Shown piece by piece: positions 6,770-44,050 of a stretch of DNA of 64,000 nt. The stretch comes from an uncultured Marivita sp. (GTDB taxonomy: Bacteria > Pseudomonadota > Alphaproteobacteria > Rhodobacterales > Rhodobacteraceae). Within the stretch, counting starts at the first letter, position 1. The number at the start of each line of letters is the position of its first letter. Under the pieces are notes generated by a model, which was given only the letters and a program-made list of their open reading frames with translations, was not told the origin of the DNA and made no database searches. A program made the position numbers and the translations under genes. The stretch spans positions 744,001-808,000 of the forward strand of contig NZ_CANKYW010000001.1 in NCBI RefSeq assembly GCF_947488135.1, given 5' to 3'.

Positions 6770-7396
6770 ATGGCATGGGACCGCAACCAGATGGCTGCAC
6801 GCGCGGCACAGGAGCTGAAGGACGGCATGTATGTCAATCTCGGCATCGGCATCCCGACGCTCGTGTCGAATTACATTCCCGAAGGCGTGACCGTGACGCT
6901 GCAATCCGAAAACGGCATGCTGGGCATGGGCCCGTTCCCCTATGAGGGCGAGGAAGACCCCGATCTGATCAACGCGGGCAAGCAGACGATCACCGAACTG
7001 CCGCACACGTCGTATTTCGACAGCGCGACGTCCTTCGGCATGATCCGCGGCGGCAAGATCGCCATGGCGATCCTTGGCGCGATGGAGGTGGACGAGAAGG
7101 GCGATCTGGCGAACTGGATGATCCCGGGCAAGCTGGTCAAGGGCATGGGCGGAGCGATGGACCTCGTCGCGGGTGTCGGCCGCGTGATCGTCGTGATGGA
7201 TCACACCAACAAGCACGGCGACAGCAAGCTTTTGAAGGAATGCACCCTGCCGCTGACCGGCGCGGGCGTGGTGGACCGGATCATCACCAATCTGGGGGTT
7301 CTGGATGTCGTCGAGGGCGGGCTGAAGATCGTGGAGACCGCTGACGGCGTGACCGAAGACGAGCTGCGCGCGGCGACCGAGGCGACCATCGTCTGA
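6770..7396 (+). CDS. scoB: 3-oxoacid CoA-transferase subunit B
   Basis: Beta subunit of succinyl-CoA:3-ketoacid CoA-transferase, 208 aa, partner of ScoA. It contains the catalytic glutamate in the signature [15 protein letters not shown], which forms the glutamyl-CoA intermediate. [18 protein letters not shown] lies near the N-terminus and [31 protein letters not shown] and [15 protein letters not shown] further on, all typical. The ATG follows AAGAGGACAACCACT, a good ribosome site. It is the last gene of the scoA-LOV-scoB unit and converges on apt, with a hairpin-rich intergenic element between them. Confidence 0.96.
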
Positions 7397-7403
7397 GGCG
7401 GGG

Positions 7404-7507
7404 CCGAATTTCGTAAAAAATTCGGGTGCAATCCTTCGCAGGATTGCGTCCCTTGGCCGGATGTTCAGCGCGGTGTCCGGCGAAGCGCTTGGGGGTTCCA
7501 CCCCCAA
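7404..7507. repeat. multi-hairpin intergenic element between scoB and apt
   Basis: Four inverted repeats in a row between convergent genes: CCGAATTT/AAATTCGG (7404-7425), GCAATCCT/AGGATTGC around TCGC (7428-7447), GCCGGA/TCCGGC (7456-7481), and TTGGGGG/CCCCCAA (7489-7507). The first two match in architecture the pair at 58861-58905: an A/T-cored hairpin directly followed by a second with a short loop. It may act as a two-way terminator. The GC-rich tail followed by CATATTT resembles a common Rhodobacteraceae intergenic motif (general familiarity, not searched). Confidence 0.75.
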
Positions 7508-37840: not shown

Positions 37841-38703
37841 GCGCGCGCCCCGATCCTGCGCCGTCGCGGTTGAAGTACCGGATGGAGCGGCTCATGCTGA
37901 CGCCGCTCTTCCGCTTTCTGCTGCGGTTCGGCTTGCCCTGTCTCTTGACGTTTGGGGCCGCGAGCTGGTGGCTGTCGGTAGACCAAAACCGAATGAAGAT
38001 CATCGACACCTACGCCGATCTGCGCGCCCAGGTGGAAAGCCGCCCGGAATTCATGGTCAACATGATGGCAGTGGACGGCGCGAGTGACCTGGTGGCCGAG
38101 GGCATTCGCCAGATGCTGCCGTTGGATTTCCCGATCAGCTCGTTCGATCTTGATCTCGAAGCGATGCGCGAAACCGTCGTGTCGCTGGACCCGGTGAAAT
38201 CGGCGCGACTTTACGTGCGGCAGGGCAACGTCTTGCAGGTCGACGTGGTGGAACGCATCCCGGTGGTGCTCTGGCGCAATGACCGGGGGTTGCAGCTTTT
38301 GGACGACGAGGGCGTGCTGGTCGGACCGGCTTTCGTTCGCTCGGACTGGCCGGAATTGCCGCTGATCGTGGGCGATGGTGCCAACACCCACGTCGACGAG
38401 GCGCTGGAACTCGTTGCTGCGGCAGAGCCGCTCTCCACGCGGTTGCGTGGCCTAGTGCGTATGGGTGAACGCCGCTGGGACGTGGTGCTGGACCGGGGTC
38501 AGCGCATCCTGCTGCCCGAGACCGAAGCCGTGCAGGCGCTTGAACGCGTGATCGCGATGGACCAGGCGGTCGACATGCTGGAACGCGATCTCGTGGCGGT
38601 CGATTTGCGACTGCCGAACCGACCAACACTCAGAATGACAGATGGAGCGGTGCAGGAATTGCTCCGCATCCGGGCGATCGAGGCAGGGGAACCAGTGGAA
38701 TGA
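37828..38703 (+). CDS. ftsQ: cell division protein FtsQ
   Basis: Bitopic divisome protein linking early and late division proteins. The 291-aa product has a cytoplasmic tail to about residue 30 (basic, SRLKYRMERLMLTP), one membrane helix (RFGLPCLLTFGAASWWL), then a periplasmic POTRA domain (FPISSFDLDLEAMRETVV, VKSARLYVRQGNVLQVDVVE, RIPVVLWRNDRGL) and the beta domain (ERRWDVVLDRGQRILLPE). The start could be the ATG at 37828 or a GTG at 37801; both overlap ddl. Its stop overlaps ftsA by four bases. Confidence 0.93.
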   Translation: MSQMSARPDPAPSRLKYRMERLMLTPLFRFLLRFGLPCLLTFGAASWWLSVDQNRMKIIDTYADLRAQVESRPEFMVNMMAVDGASDLVAEGIRQMLPLDFPISSFDLDLEAMRETVVSLDPVKSARLYVRQGNVLQVDVVERIPVVLWRNDRGLQLLDDEGVLVGPAFVRSDWPELPLIVGDGANTHVDEALELVAAAEPLSTRLRGLVRMGERRWDVVLDRGQRILLPETEAVQALERVIAMDQAVDMLERDLVAVDLRLPNRPTLRMTDGAVQELLRIRAIEAGEPVE

Positions 38704-40034
38704 TCGAGCTTTACGAGTCTCAACGGGCGATGCGCAACATGCGCAGGGCGGCGATGCAGCGAGGGGTGATTGCCATTCTCGACATCGGCAGTTCCAAGAT
38801 CGCCTGTCTTGTGCTGCGGTTTGACGGAACGGACCGGGGTATCGAGAGCGACTCCATCGGCTCTTTGGCGGGACAGTCGGGATTCCGCGTCATCGGCGCG
38901 GCGACCACACGGTCACGCGGTGTGCGCTTCGGCGAAATCGACTCCATGGGCGAAACCGAGCGGGCGATCCGCACGGCGGTGCAGGCGGCGCAGAAGATGG
39001 CGCAGATCCGGGTAGATCACGTGATCGCCAGCTTTGCCGGCGCCGATCCCCGCAGCTACGGGCTTGCGGGCAAGGTCGAAGTGGCCGGCACGACGGTGGA
39101 CGAACAGGACGTGGCCCGCGTGCTGTCGGCCTGTGACGTGCCTGATTTCGGACATGGCCGCGAAGTACTGCACGCGCAGCCGGTGAATTTCGCTTTGGAC
39201 CATCGCAGCGGGTTGATCGACCCGCGCGGGCAGATCGGTCAGGAACTGGCGACGGACATGCACATGCTGACGGTGGACGCGATGGCGATCCAGAATCTTG
39301 CGCATTGCATGAAGCGCTGTGACCTCGAATTGGCGGGGATCGCAAGCTCGGCTTATGTGTCGGGTGTCTCGGCTCTGGTCGAGGACGAACAGGAACTGGG
39401 CGCCGCGTGCATCGACATGGGCGGCGGCTCGACCGGGCTGTCGATCTTCATGAAGAAGCACATGATCTACGCCGATGCGGTGCGCATGGGTGGCGATCAC
39501 GTGACCAGCGATATCTCGATGGGGTTGCAAGTTCCAATGGCCGTGGCTGAGCGGATCAAGACCTTCCACGGAGGCGTCGTGGCCACCGGTATGGACGACC
39601 GCGACATGATCGAGATCGGCGGCGATACGGGCGACTGGCATCACGACCGGCGCTCGGTCAGCCGGGCCGAGCTGATCGGGATCATGCGCCCGCGCGTCGA
39701 GGAAATCCTCGAAGAGGTGCGCGCACGGCTCGACGCGGCCGGGTTCGAGCATCTGCCAAGCCAGCAGATCGTGCTGACGGGCGGGGCCAGCCAGATTCCA
39801 GGCCTGGATGGTTTGGCCACGAAGATCCTCGGGCAGCAGGTGCGCTTGGGTCGTCCCATGCGTGTCCACGGTCTGCCTCAAGCGGCGACCGGTCCGGGCT
39901 TTGCAAGTGCGGTCGGTTTGTGCCTTTTCGCCGCGCATCCACAGGACGAATGGTGGGATTTCGAGATCCCGGTGGATCGCTATCCGGCGCGGTCGCTCAA
40001 GCGGGCGGTCAAGTGGTTCCGGGACAATTGGTGA
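38700..40034 (+). CDS. ftsA: cell division protein FtsA
   Basis: Actin-like protein that tethers FtsZ to the membrane and activates the divisome. The 444-aa protein has the ATP-binding loops IAILDIGSSKIACLVL near residue 22 and GAACIDMGGGSTGLSIF, the SHS2/1C insertion domain between, and VLTGGASQIPGLDGLA for the adenosine motif. The C-terminus ends RSLKRAVKWFRDNW, a basic amphipathic helix that is the expected membrane anchor. It overlaps ftsQ (ATGA). ftsZ is not the next gene: two opposite-strand genes intervene. Confidence 0.96.
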   Translation: MIELYESQRAMRNMRRAAMQRGVIAILDIGSSKIACLVLRFDGTDRGIESDSIGSLAGQSGFRVIGAATTRSRGVRFGEIDSMGETERAIRTAVQAAQKMAQIRVDHVIASFAGADPRSYGLAGKVEVAGTTVDEQDVARVLSACDVPDFGHGREVLHAQPVNFALDHRSGLIDPRGQIGQELATDMHMLTVDAMAIQNLAHCMKRCDLELAGIASSAYVSGVSALVEDEQELGAACIDMGGGSTGLSIFMKKHMIYADAVRMGGDHVTSDISMGLQVPMAVAERIKTFHGGVVATGMDDRDMIEIGGDTGDWHHDRRSVSRAELIGIMRPRVEEILEEVRARLDAAGFEHLPSQQIVLTGGASQIPGLDGLATKILGQQVRLGRPMRVHGLPQAATGPGFASAVGLCLFAAHPQDEWWDFEIPVDRYPARSLKRAVKWFRDNW

Positions 40035-40096
40035 CGCTGGAGGCCCGTTGGCCTCCGACGGCGCAATTCTTCCGCGATTGATGATGTCCAACGATG

Positions 40097-40123
40097 AAAA
40101 AGGCCGCCAACCGGCGGCCTTTT
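40097..40123. terminator. bidirectional terminator between ftsA and dsrE-like gene
   Basis: Perfect arms AAAGGCCGCC (40099-40108) and GGCGGCCTTT (40113-40122) around AACC, with A-rich bases before and T after, so it works in both directions. It lies 62 bases after the ftsA stop and 33 bases from the stop of the convergent dsrE-like gene. Confidence 0.85.
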
Positions 40124-40156
40124 CACAATCATTCCACGATCAGTTCTGATCGGAGG

Positions 40157-40621
40157 TCACGGCTTGATGTAAGTGTATCCCTGCATTTGCAGATGCGACA
40201 GCTCTGCCACGCCGCTTGGCACGATGTCCTCTTCGAACACGTCGAAAAGATCGTTCTCGTAGGAAATCTCGCGACCTTGAAGCGTGTTGTTGCAGACATG
40301 GATCGCCACGTTCTGCCCTTTCAGTTCAAGAACCTGCCCTTGCAGCATCTGGTTCGTCTTGGCCGCTGCCAGAACACCCAACCCATCGCCGTGCAGGACC
40401 AGCTTGATGTCCATGTTCTCGGCGCCGACGGCGTTGATGTGGTTCTGCATGTTGCGCAGAGCGCCGCGGTAGGCGCGGTCGTCCTCTCCGCCGGAGTAGT
40501 TGATGTGGTACACGACCTTCTGCTTGCCATAGCGCTCTTGTGCTTCGGCGTCGGTGGTTGTCGCCGCGACGCCCAGAATGGCGATGGCGCAGGCCAGTAC
40601 CAGTGATGTCAGATATTTCAT
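40157..40621 (-). CDS. secreted DsrE/DsrF-like protein
   Basis: A 154-residue exported protein with a DsrE-like fold. The signal peptide is MKYLTSLVLACAIAILGVAA, with probable cleavage near DAEAQ. The mature domain shows KVVYHINYSGGEDDRAYRG, NMQNHINAVGAENMDIKLVL, VLHGDGLGVL and the cysteine-bearing VAIHVCNNTLQGREI, the position of the active Cys in DsrE-family sulfur carriers. Periplasmic DsrE-like proteins of this kind are often found near sulfur oxidation genes, but the family also contains proteins of unknown role. The ATG has GGGAGGACAGC upstream. It lies 137 bases downstream of the PhnD-LuxR gene, on the same strand, and is a natural candidate for its target. Confidence 0.82.
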   Translation of the reverse strand: MKYLTSLVLACAIAILGVAATTTDAEAQERYGKQKVVYHINYSGGEDDRAYRGALRNMQNHINAVGAENMDIKLVLHGDGLGVLAAAKTNQMLQGQVLELKGQNVAIHVCNNTLQGREISYENDLFDVFEEDIVPSGVAELSHLQMQGYTYIKP

Positions 40622-40758
40622 GCTGTCCTCCCGTTTTCGTTGCCGGATCGCACGTGCGACCCGTATCCCAGCTTTGCACAGGAGGGGATGGGAAGCACCT
40701 CGGGTGAACCACGGGTTGGTCCGGAAATCATCCCCGGGAGATGCCTAGGGAACGATCG

Positions 40759-41991
40759 TCAACTGGCCAGCGCCACCAGTTGGGTAGAGGATCGCGCGTC
40801 GAACTTCTTGAGAAGATTGGCGCGGTGAAACTCCACCGTTTTGGGGCTGATTTCGAGACGCTGCGCGATCTCTTTCGAAGAATAACCTTGCGTGATGTAG
40901 TCGAGGATCTGACGTTCTCGCTTCGTCAGACTGGGCAGGTCCTTGTCCGGGGTCTGGTCGGACGAGCCCGACCGGAGCATCTGGTTTGACCGATCTCGAG
41001 TAAACCGAAACGCCAGCGCGGTCGCGGCGCCGAGCCCTGCCGCGATCACGAGGATAAGCGGCACCAGTCCGATCACTCGTTGCCACAAGGTGGGTTGTTC
41101 GACTCGCAGCGCGAAAGCGCGTTTGAGATCGATGGCGGCATTATAGGCGACGGGCGACGACCAATAATTGCGCAATCTCATGTCCTGGGCGACCGGGTTG
41201 TCCTTTGCGCTCAGAAGGGCGATCGCCACGGCGTCCCGCAGGCGTGGATCCACATTTGCAAGTGCCGCGAAGGGCCATTCCGGGTAAAGCCGGGTGCTGA
41301 TCATGTCGGGATGCGCGTATGTGACGTTGGTGTTGAGATAGACGAAGTCATCCTTGGCATAGCTGCCCTCGGAAATCGCGCGCTCCATCAGCCCGCTGCG
41401 GATGATCCCGATATCGGCCTGTCCCGTGGCAACGCGCTTGATGACGCCATCCATCGGAAACCCGACGAAAACCAAGGCCTCGGTGTCTGTGAACAAATTG
41501 ATCTGGGCATTGTCGAATTCGCGCCAGGCCAACTGAAAGCCACCGAACGCCATCTTGTCGATCGCGACCACAGTCTTGCCGCGCGCATCGACAAGTTCTT
41601 CGATGCCCGACCCCGCGCGCGCGATGATGAGGCTGCCGAATTCGGCGGAATAGGTGCCGTCGCTGCGTTGGAGATTGCGGGTCGCAATCACGCTCATGGC
41701 GTGATCTTGCGCAAGATCGACATAGTGCCCCGGGTTGGTGAGCACGAAATCAATCTGTCCGCTCGCGATCTGCGACGAGGCGGAGGCCAGTGTCATGGGA
41801 ACAAGATCGAATTCATGGCTTGGTACCGTCGCATCGAGGTATCGTTTGAGCCCGTGCCACCGGACCAACGCATCCTCGTATCCAAGGTAGGCGAGCACAC
41901 CGATGCGCGCCTGGGACACAGGCGTTTGCGCTTCGCTCTGACCCGGGCACAGCCCGGCCAGGCACACGGCGGTCATGAGTGCCCTGAACAT
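40759..41991 (-). CDS. membrane one-component regulator: PhnD-like sensor, TM helix, LuxR HTH
   Basis: A 410-residue fusion. Signal peptide: MFRALMTAVCLAGLCPGQSEA. Residues about 25-300 form a PhnD/phosphate-type periplasmic solute-binding domain: ARIGVLAYLGYEDALVRW, SGQIDFVLTNPGHYVDLA, FGSLIIARAGSGIEELVD, GKTVVAIDKMAFGGFQLA, and the ATGQADIGIIRSGLMERA segment. A single membrane helix (VIGLVPLILVIAAGLGAA, about 306-328) follows. The C-terminus (354-410) is a GerE/LuxR helix-turn-helix: SLTKRERQILDYITQGYSS, KEIAQRLEISPKTVEFHRA. There is no receiver, autoinducer or kinase domain. The topology implies direct transmembrane signalling, as in ToxR-like proteins. A strong ribosome site (AGGAGGAGAC) precedes the ATG. 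It is inserted between ftsA and ftsZ with the dsrE-like gene. Confidence 0.9.
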   Translation of the reverse strand: MFRALMTAVCLAGLCPGQSEAQTPVSQARIGVLAYLGYEDALVRWHGLKRYLDATVPSHEFDLVPMTLASASSQIASGQIDFVLTNPGHYVDLAQDHAMSVIATRNLQRSDGTYSAEFGSLIIARAGSGIEELVDARGKTVVAIDKMAFGGFQLAWREFDNAQINLFTDTEALVFVGFPMDGVIKRVATGQADIGIIRSGLMERAISEGSYAKDDFVYLNTNVTYAHPDMISTRLYPEWPFAALANVDPRLRDAVAIALLSAKDNPVAQDMRLRNYWSSPVAYNAAIDLKRAFALRVEQPTLWQRVIGLVPLILVIAAGLGAATALAFRFTRDRSNQMLRSGSSDQTPDKDLPSLTKRERQILDYITQGYSSKEIAQRLEISPKTVEFHRANLLKKFDARSSTQLVALAS

Positions 41992-42421
41992 CGTCTCCTC
42001 CTGACGTGATCATAGTCGGAGCGGTATCGCGCGCGCAATCACACACTGATGTCAGGGCGGGCGAGGTTTCGCGTTTTCGCCCGGGAATCAATCCGCGACA
42101 TCGCAACTGCCGCTGGAGGTTTTCGGGGGATCATGCTATGATTTAAAAAAAATAAAGGCGGGCTCGAGCAGGCACCGATCCAGACAAAATTTCCAGAGCC
42201 GCTTCGGGCGGTATCTCTTCGATTGCCTAGTGGTTGGATGAGCTTTGGCCGCTATATATCGACAACTTGGCGAAATTCCGCGATCTTCGATAGGAAACAG
42301 GCCATATTTGGGGGCAAAACCGTGTTTTTTGCGTGACCTTCGCGCATCTGGACGATAATACTGCCACTGATAGGTGCAGAAAAAGCTCCGAATGGAGCGA
42401 AACTAGCAGGCGGATAGAGAC
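41992..42421. other. 430-base intergenic region upstream of ftsZ and the PhnD-LuxR gene
   Basis: No gene is visible here. It holds the divergent promoters of ftsZ (plus) and the PhnD-LuxR gene (minus). Seen: an A/T tract with TATGATTTAAAAAAAATAAA around 42137-42156, in which TATGAT could be a -10 element for ftsZ, and the alternating GCGCGCGC near 42029. I could not find a full CtrA box or a convincing operator. A mildly structured GCC/GGC segment lies near 42190. Confidence 0.5.
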
Positions 42422-44050
42422 ATGACATTGAACCTTTCGGTGCCCGGACAAGACGAATTGAAACCCCGCATCACCGTGTTCGGTGTCGGCGGCGCTGGCG
42501 GCAACGCCGTGAACAACATGATCGACAAATCCCTTGAGGGTGTCGACTTCGTGGTTGCGAACACGGACGCGCAAGCCCTTCAGCAAAGCCGGTCGACCAG
42601 CCGGATCCAGCTTGGGGTGAAAGTCACCGAAGGTTTGGGTGCAGGCGCCCGCGCAACCGTCGGTGCCGCTGCTGCGGAAGAAAGCATCGAACAGATCGTC
42701 GATCACCTTGCGGGCGCGCATATGTGCTTCATCACCGCCGGGATGGGCGGCGGCACCGGAACGGGTGCTGCTCCGATCATCGCGCAAGCCGCACGTGAGC
42801 TTGGTGTTCTCACCGTTGGCGTCGTGACCAAGCCCTTCCAGTTCGAGGGCAACAAGCGGATGAAGCAGGCCGAGGATGGGGTCGACGCGCTTCAGAAGGT
42901 CGTCGATACGCTGATCATCATTCCGAACCAAAACCTGTTCCGGCTCGCCAACGAAAAGACAACCTTCACCGAAGCGTTCAGCATGGCGGATGACGTGCTG
43001 TACCAGGGTGTGAAAGGTGTGACCGACCTGATGGTGCGTCCGGGCCTCATCAACCTCGACTTTGCCGATGTCCGCGCCGTGATGGACGAGATGGGCAAGG
43101 CGATGATGGGCACCGGCGAGGCCGAGGGCGAAGACCGCGCCATTCAGGCCGCCGAGAAGGCCATCGCGAACCCGCTGCTGGACGAAATCAGCCTGCGCGG
43201 CGCGAAGGGCGTTCTCATCAACATCACCGGCGGTCACGACCTCACGCTGTTCGAGCTCGACGAGGCGGCCAACCGTATCCGCGAGGAAGTGGACACGGAT
43301 GCCAACATCATCGTCGGCTCCACTCTGGATGACAACATGCAGGGCATGATGCGCGTCAGCGTTGTCGCCACCGGCATCGACGCCGTCGATGTGCACACCG
43401 ACATTCCGGTGCCGCGCCGGTCGCTCGCCACGCCGCTGACCCAGACGACCCGTGTGGAAGAGGCGCAGCAGGCCGAAAAAGAACAGCCGATGCCCGAGCC
43501 GGTCGCGGCCCGTGTCGCCGAAGAGCCGTCGCTGTTCGGAAAGATGGAGACAGAGCGCGAAGCTGCCGAAGAGCAGATGGAAACGATCTTCGAAGAAGAC
43601 GACACCCAGCACGAAGCGGTTGATGAAGACGGCCTTCCGGCGCCCGCCTATCGTCCGCAGGTGGCCGAATTCAATCCGCGCGATGACAGCATCGAGGCCG
43701 ACCCGGAGCAATTCGTCGCTCCGCGCGCACCGGCACCGGGCACGCCAAGCGCAGAAGCCTTGGCCCGTCTGCAAGCCGCCGCATCGCGCGCGCGTCCTGC
43801 CGCTGGCACGCGTCCGAGCGCACCCGCCGAAGCGGAGCCCGCCGATGCGGAACGTCCGCGTTTCGGGATCAATTCGCTCATCAATCGCATGACGGGTCAT
43901 GGCCAGCATCCGGAGACACCGGTGCGCCGCACGGCCCCGCCGCCGGTGCAATCCGGTGCCGCCGCACCCGCGCGCGCACCGTCGCCGGAAGCGGACGAAG
44001 ACCAGGAGCGCATCGAAATCCCTGCGTTCCTGCGCCGCCAAGCCAACTGA
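42422..44050 (+). CDS. ftsZ: cell division protein FtsZ
   Basis: Tubulin-like GTPase that forms the division ring. The 542-aa protein is long because of an extended linker, typical of alphaproteobacteria. GTPase core: [16 protein letters not shown] (G-loop), the tubulin signature [16 protein letters not shown] near residue 115, the [13 protein letters not shown] segment, the T7 loop [11 protein letters not shown], and [18 protein letters not shown] Glu/Pro/Ala-rich disordered linker covers about 325-525. The C-terminal peptide [16 protein letters not shown] is the FtsA-binding tail. It has its own 430-base upstream region and a strong terminator after it. Confidence 0.98.

Follow-up and report, generated by a model that had tools for sequence, protein, structure and literature searches.

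A PhnD-like sensor joined to a LuxR-type DNA-binding domain beside dsrE in Marivita: an apparent shortening of a two-component relay to one protein

How can a signal sensed outside the cell reach DNA when no kinase stands in between? The question is raised by a gene in a 64,000-nucleotide stretch (hereafter the window) of contig NZ_CANKYW010000001.1 from an uncultured Marivita sp., whose product joins a PhnD-like periplasmic sensor, through one membrane helix, to a LuxR/FixJ-type helix-turn-helix (HTH). PhnD-type sensors are familiar as transport proteins and as the heads of sensor kinases, and an earlier note on this DNA had read the protein as a ToxR-like regulator carrying a sulfur- or phosphorus-oxyanion signal to DNA. 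We consider it rather probable that the protein is a membrane one-component derivative of a TtrSR/ThsSR-like two-component system, which would sense a sulfur oxyanion and switch on the adjoining dsrE gene. A two-protein signalling relay appears here to be shortened to one protein, and the direct PhnD-LuxR/FixJ fusion shows a route by which a two-component system can collapse in this way.

Integrity, relatives and sensor kinship of the regulator

The open reading frame (ORF) of the regulator starts with an ATG preceded by a Shine-Dalgarno-like AGGAGGAG. The architecture proposed in the earlier note (signal peptide, PhnD-type domain, one membrane helix and C-terminal GerE/LuxR domain) was borne out by Pfam, hydropathy and orthologues. 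The Phosphonate-bd model of Pfam matched residues 31-269 with 112.6 bits (cutoff 27) and GerE (PF00196) residues 354-409 with 77.3 bits (cutoff 23.5), the HTH also having the FixJ, NarL and TtrR models among its matches (TtrR, 40.4 bits). As the note had claimed, no kinase, receiver or autoinducer domain was present among the Pfam matches at E <= 0.01. The hydrophobic segment at residues ~306-328, with basic residues after it, reached a 19-residue Kyte-Doolittle mean of 2.37 (the topology being given by hydropathy only), and an equivalent segment was found in all 17 fusion proteins, with means of 1.53-2.95, in agreement with its being membrane-spanning as proposed.

A sequencing frameshift or chimera joining two genes, which the earlier note had named as the danger to its reading, is contradicted by the same 410-codon ORF in three congeners and the same architecture in 13 further genomes. 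Because of these intact orthologues in 16 other genomes, the regulator is a genuine single gene. Across the 17 fusions the sensor keeps invariant residues (TNPGH at 85-89, AFGG at 148-151, GFP at 177-179, R198, G200 and PEW at 237-239), and the HTH likewise has invariant residues.

Full-length fusions were found in four of the 17 genomes of the host genus, where the regulators of the three congeners are 77-80% identical to that of the host, and in 13 of the 394 genomes sampled from its family, host included. The phylum sample gave two among 398 genomes, the host and G531 (another family of the same class), and a class scan of 318 genomes at E <= 1e-40 gave the host as sole full-length fusion; the family, phylum, class and relatives samples overlap. 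Outside the genus (12 family genomes and G531), the fusions are full-length at 34-52% identity. Two partial matches of the class scan were rejected as fusions, one (L169) having no such HTH within the stretch and the other (L170) having it out of frame with the sensor, as would be expected of a regulator gene of its own. The 59 matches whose reading frame was examined comprise the 17 fusions, 41 without this HTH in the frame examined (for 19 the fetched sequence ends before the frame does, and many of the 41 carry kinase boxes) and one second one-component layout. On plasmids, 104 records matched but none covered 80% of the regulator, and the 20 matches listed are annotated sensor kinases or binding proteins. 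The second layout, in G305 (L026/L080; L080:1289-3148), is a 610-residue protein with PhnD domain, membrane helix, a linker of ~200 residues that is GAF-like by eye though not by Pfam, and GerE; Pfam gave no kinase in it, and it falls outside the fusion clade in the sensor tree, with moderate support.

The best NCBIfam model for the sensor was the TtrS tetrathionate kinase (NF040750), with 155.7 bits over residues 27-308 where the whole-protein cutoff is 750, and TtrS was also the top model in the three other fusions scanned. The PhnD equivalog TIGR03431, in contrast, gave only 24.7 bits against a cutoff of 261.1. A tree of 58 sensor domains placed all 17 fusions in one clade (93/93) grouped with 11 histidine kinases (L013, L028, L030, L031, L040, L044, L050, L057, L061, L063 and L068; fork 82/86). 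The two kinases scanned among these, L013 and L044, also had TtrS as best model (353 and 346 bits, under the cutoff of 750). The link to TtrS-type sensors drawn in the earlier note is supported. The L013 locus (G019) further encodes a response regulator (FixJ 225 bits, TtrR 173 bits, both under cutoff), a 4Fe-4S protein, an NrfD protein and a full-length match to TtrA (1320 bits, cutoff 1750). Since the fusions are one clade beside TtrS-like kinases, the fusion looks like a single event from a TtrS-like background.

The dsrE partner and a candidate operator

The gene directly downstream of the regulator, on the same strand, encodes a DsrE domain (45.6 bits) whose Cys110 is conserved in 31 of the 31 covering rows of a 32-row alignment and aligns with the cysteine of both solved relatives, MTH1491 (1L1S, 1.6e-18) and ST0148 (2PD2, 4e-8). 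The earlier note had suggested that orthologues of the regulator might sit beside dsrE, sox or phn genes. The dsrE part of this held: in 15 of the 17 fusion loci (host, three congeners, 10 of the 12 other family genomes, and G531) the regulator is directly followed, on its own strand, by a DsrE-family gene. The sox part did not hold for the fusion itself, soxB lying at a distance, and neither sox nor phn genes were present in the portion of the fusion flanks whose genes were scanned. In G422 (L071, 338-631) dsrE is interrupted behind an intact fusion, the remaining part having matches on another contig, and the dsrE of G399 is truncated where the contig stops. The home-made gene caller overlooked the dsrE of L077 and some start codons, and on the sox stretch its predictions are unreliable.

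In the host, the pair occupies the interval between the cell-division genes ftsA and ftsZ (window 40035-42421). Within the genus, dsrE and the fusion are both present in the same four of 17 genomes and both absent in 13, and ftsA and ftsZ lie 172-183 bp apart in five of the six non-carrier congeners checked (L171-L175; ftsA was not found in the flank of the sixth). Given non-carriers with ftsA and ftsZ so close together, the pair behaves as one unit, inserted at or lost from this site. Elsewhere, six fusion loci (L070-L075) have a common upstream MORN-repeat/NAD-synthase flank, the four genus loci share another, and the scanned neighbours of the rest vary (ribosomal L7/L12, PHB depolymerase, EF-P, FtsW, cupredoxin, CobS, FtsJ). 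An unfused layout was found in G663 (L084, 8191-11305), where a TtrS-like kinase, a receiver-GerE response regulator and dsrE follow one another. Orthologues of dsrE (at least 56% identity) are present in 27 of the 394 family genomes, 17 of which lack the fusion; one of these dsrE-only loci, L122 (G317, 7055-7432), has an in-frame stop in dsrE and is still among the counted orthologues.

The earlier note had guessed that the HTH tail acts upstream of position 40621, and a conserved repeated motif lies exactly there, which would suit such a role. The motif, GGTTTTCCCnAGG, is common to 11 fusion-to-dsrE intergenics, no two of them congeneric; the three congeners, being near-copies, and L077, whose DsrE is distant, did not enter the set, and Shine-Dalgarno sequences, which a first run had picked up, were trimmed before the final one. 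At width (w) 12 it scored 57.6 against 37.2 +/- 2.7 in resampled sequence (8 first-order Markov resamples per width). In a clade-held-out test, the median was 9.6 bits in the fusion loci and 4.4 in 14 of the 17 dsrE-only upstreams (three shorter than 60 bp were dropped), with p=1.8e-5 (2.3e-5 at w=14 and 2.9e-5 at w=16) and 10 of the 11 loci above the best control; this hold-out is incomplete, since the five clades include one pair of tree sisters with a chromosomal flank in common. The control upstreams also exceeded resamples at w=20 (87.0 vs 72.1), the pattern there being AT-rich and different from that of the fusions.

In the genus, the proximal part TGGTTCACCCGAGGTG is identical in all four carriers while the surrounding intergenic sequence drifts, and no other match with fewer than two mismatches was found in the four carrier genomes. 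A wider regulon was considered and rejected, total matches being 8, 8, 11 and 12 in the four genomes against 6, 7, 10 and 8 for the control. The w=12 model, trained on the 11 gaps, gave 18.1 bits in the intergenic gap that follows the PhnD-linker-LuxR gene of G305, where the next gene is ModA-like and there is no dsrE, and 13.3 and 11.9 bits immediately after the fusion of G183 (L078), whose fetched stretch showed no DsrE; resampled sequence gave 1.7 matches of at least 11 bits per 19.9 kb. The gap of G246 gave 10.7 bits, and GGAATACCCTAATTAATCTAGGAAAACC before dsrE in the unfused layout of G663 gave 9.6 bits. Since matches stand behind the dsrE-less regulators of G305 and G183, the motif tends to follow the regulator and not dsrE, as would be expected of an operator for this HTH. 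Autoregulation was rejected, the best match upstream of the regulator being just 6.3 bits. No clear promoter was seen by eye, no promoter scan having been made.

Table 1. Features of the regulator-dsrE locus (window positions)
Feature	Coordinates	Strand	Basis and remarks
PhnD-like sensor, membrane helix and LuxR/FixJ-type HTH one-component regulator	40759..41991	minus	410 amino acids; stop codon included in coordinates
Signal peptide, residues ~1-22 (...SEA/Q, cleavage at the slash)	41926..41991	minus	by eye and hydropathy
Periplasmic PhnD/TtrS-like ligand-binding domain, residues 31-269	41185..41901	minus	Pfam, NCBIfam
Single membrane helix, residues ~306-328, then basic residues	41008..41076	minus	hydropathy
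Cytoplasmic GerE/LuxR HTH, residues 354-409	40765..40932	minus	Pfam
Candidate operator, distal part CCCTAGGCATCTCCCGGG	40733..40750	minus	directly behind regulator stop; partly conserved in 4 congeners; position weight matrix (PWM) 8.8 bits
Candidate operator, proximal part TGGTTCACCCGAGGTG	40696..40711	minus	~75 bp upstream of dsrE start; overlapping PWM match 14.6 bits
Shine-Dalgarno-like GGGAGGAC of dsrE	40625-40632	minus	
dsrE-like gene, 154 amino acids, signal peptide and DsrE domain, Cys110 in CNNTL	40157..40621	minus	Pfam PF02635; signal peptide by eye
ftsA	38700-40034	opposite to regulator/dsrE	Pfam
ftsZ	42422-44050	opposite to regulator/dsrE	Pfam

Ligand and mechanism

The earlier note had left the signal between a sulfur and a phosphorus oxyanion. 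Because of the DsrE partner and an excess of soxB in genomes with dsrE, sulfur would be favoured over phosphorus. Counted at E <= 1e-60, soxB is present in 248 of the 394 family genomes (244 over the curated cutoff), nearly every genome of this sample being of a different genus, and it was found in 25 of the 27 genomes with a dsrE orthologue against 223 of the 367 others (one-sided Fisher p=3.6e-4, uncorrected for ancestry). Five genomes with weak DsrE matches at 30-39% identity (G067, G143, G330, G370 and G394) were not counted among the orthologues in this test, and all five hold soxB. In addition, dsrE adjoins a soxCDB operon in three of the 17 dsrE-only genomes, directly in L121 (G228) and L130 (G395), and one gene apart on the opposite strand in L129 (G210). 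The neighbours there are DUF302, a SoxD-like cytochrome, a SoxC-like molybdenum enzyme and SoxB, identified by Pfam on L121 and by blastp cluster on L129 and L130, the SoxB of G228 being separately confirmed. A DsrE family protein of unknown function is also described within the sox clusters of two Sulfitobacter species in the accessible part of PMC11034169.

We propose that the ligand of the PhnD-type periplasmic domain is a small oxyanion, most likely one of reduced sulfur such as thiosulfate or a polythionate, and that domain closure would be passed via the single membrane helix to the LuxR/FixJ-type HTH, whose dimerisation is probably changed by the ligand signal. The repeated GGTTTTCCCnAGG-like sites that closely follow its gene would be where the HTH pairs to switch on the neighbouring dsrE, presumably by activation rather than repression. 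The DsrE protein may in turn be an exported cysteine protein handling periplasmic sulfane sulfur. Judged from the sequences compared here, the ligand is probably a sulfur oxyanion and the regulator probably controls dsrE; thiosulfate or another sulfur oxyanion is our first guess, a phosphorus or arsenic oxyanion being the main rival.

Several results weigh against this model, and those from the sensor pocket bear most directly on the ligand. Position 89 is His in 17/17 fusions and Asn or Gln in 10 of the 11 neighbouring kinases, and position 200 (window 41392-41394) is Gly in 17/17 fusions and Cys in 10 of the 11 kinases; with the pocket differing at H89 and G200, tetrathionate itself is doubtful as ligand. 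The other 30 aligned sensors mostly agree with the fusions (H89 in 18, G200 in 26). The cysteine that these kinases carry at position 200 may serve tetrathionate-type sensors as a specificity or redox residue. The same pocket differences speak for the same one-component switch of dsrE answering a non-sulfur ligand (phosphite, phosphonate, arsenate/arsenite, a selenium oxyanion or an organic sulfonate), in which case DsrE would have a general thiol or stress role. So do the proteins of solved structure that a profile search links to the sensor, namely the phosphite-/phosphonate-type PtxB (3.4e-11), a PhnD-type protein (6.3e-8) and HtxB (0.006), plus ArrX (3.3e-5), which we take to be an arsenic-linked protein, as well as the one fusion and one look-alike that precede a ModA-like solute-binding protein and not DsrE. 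We nevertheless find a non-sulfur ligand unlikely, as TtrS stands far above PhnD as family match, a DsrE partner recurs in 15 of the 17 loci with soxB enriched among dsrE genomes, and no phn, ptx or ars gene was present in the subset of flank genes scanned.

The remaining points against the model concern the sox genes, the partner, the operator and the structure. For the fusion itself the soxB association is weak (12 of 13 fusion genomes vs 236 of 381, p=0.02, uncorrected for ancestry), and soxB lies at least 73 kb away or on another contig in all 9 of the 12 soxB-holding fusion genomes for which its location is listed. The host sox region shows no clear excess of motif matches (6 vs 5.9 expected at 9 bits, 3 vs 1.7 at 11 bits), and it was rejected as a target; its best match (15.7 bits, above the host's own operator) lies inside a 323-residue ORF, probably a cytochrome c, downstream of soxB. 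Two fusion loci (L076, L078) lack dsrE, a ModA-like binding protein taking its place behind the fusion of G196 (L076), where the w=12 model is also weak (8.0 bits); and the DsrE of G246 (L077) is only 28% identical, yet over the DsrE cutoff (25.0 vs 22.7 bits). One of the 11 held-out loci fell below the best control. The TtrR box is published as GTGG-N4-CCAC and a ThsR operator is published too (consulted parts of PMC11293645 and PMC5408782, respectively); the motif was rejected as such a box, its likeness being marginal and equalled by 16 of 300 shuffled palindromes. The AlphaFold model, built from 4 sequences, places a helix at 310-336 but is poor (mean pLDDT 44.6, the HTH alone near 85).

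Operator-like repeats alone do not separate activation from repression, and the regulator might instead be a repressor of dsrE relieved by ligand, or its HTH might be freed by membrane proteolysis; we give these variants a smaller chance than the non-sulfur ligand. That the fusion is a chance or decaying product, or a mis-assembly, with no regulatory role would fit its patchy spread (13 of 394 family genomes) but is very improbable: the 17 fusions form one clade, none of them is broken even where identity falls to about 32%, sensor and HTH keep invariant residues, a DsrE partner recurs and the motif is conserved. A history may also be sketched, to which we would give slightly less than an even chance: a dsrE-adjacent TtrSR-like system lost its kinase and receiver, the switch, its operator and its single target dsrE then spread as a self-contained cassette from one chromosomal site to another, and the PhnD-to-LuxR shortcut arose at least twice, the second case controlling a ModA-like protein via the same kind of operator.

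Comparison with known systems

A literature search, mostly of open-access text and with domain databases outside its scope, found no description of the PhnD, membrane helix and LuxR/GerE architecture, and a term search of the main text of a transmembrane-regulator survey, as available (PMC10269533), found neither LuxR nor GerE. The regulator is a compact candidate biosensor for sulfur oxyanions. Because it points to a candidate operator and a single target, the function of the exported DsrE, reported as unknown for Sulfitobacter sox clusters in the consulted part of PMC11034169, becomes directly testable.

TtrS has a PhnD-like sensor according to the available parts of PMC5408782 and PMC11293645. 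The regulator resembles the TtrS/TtrR and ThsS/ThsR systems (tetrathionate and thiosulfate) in its PhnD-like periplasmic sensor and its GerE-type output matching TtrR. It differs in having no histidine kinase or receiver, with sensor and HTH in one polypeptide; as against the TtrS kinase of NF040750, it lacks HisKA/HATPase and falls far short of the bits needed. Its neighbours are dsrE, ftsA and ftsZ, with no linked ttrBCA reductase and an exported DsrE as partner, and two conserved pocket positions set it apart from the related TtrS-like kinases. With the LuxR/FixJ (NarL) regulators it shares the GerE-type HTH, but Pfam gave it no receiver or autoinducer-binding domain, and it is unlike the PhnD-type binding proteins of ABC transporters both in its low PhnD equivalog score and in its immediate neighbours, none of which is an ABC transporter gene.

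DsrEFH is a cytoplasmic complex in the dsr/tus operon, whereas the dsrE of the window stands alone between the regulator and ftsA, and its product has, by eye, an N-terminal leader. By family annotation it is like the DsrE of the Sulfitobacter sox clusters (orf2 in the accessible part of PMC11034169), a DsrE family protein of alphaproteobacterial sulfur oxidisers, and its orthologues stand beside soxCDB in three genomes; unlike orf2, it is distant from sox and is accompanied by a membrane regulator of its own. It shares the DsrE domain and the aligned cysteine with MTH1491 and ST0148, both entered as hypothetical proteins, but these alignments cover the DsrE domain alone and not the N-terminal leader.

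The ToxR/CadC layout has an N-terminal winged-helix DNA-binding domain. Like ToxR and CadC, the regulator has an external sensor, one membrane pass and a DNA-binding domain inside, all in one protein, and the term ToxR-like used in the earlier note was apt for this logic, from outside to DNA in one polypeptide. It did not hold for fold and domain order, the HTH being C-terminal and of LuxR/FixJ (GerE) type, with a sensor of the periplasmic-binding-protein kind. We rate the architecture as a TtrS-type sensor in a ToxR-like one-protein layout.
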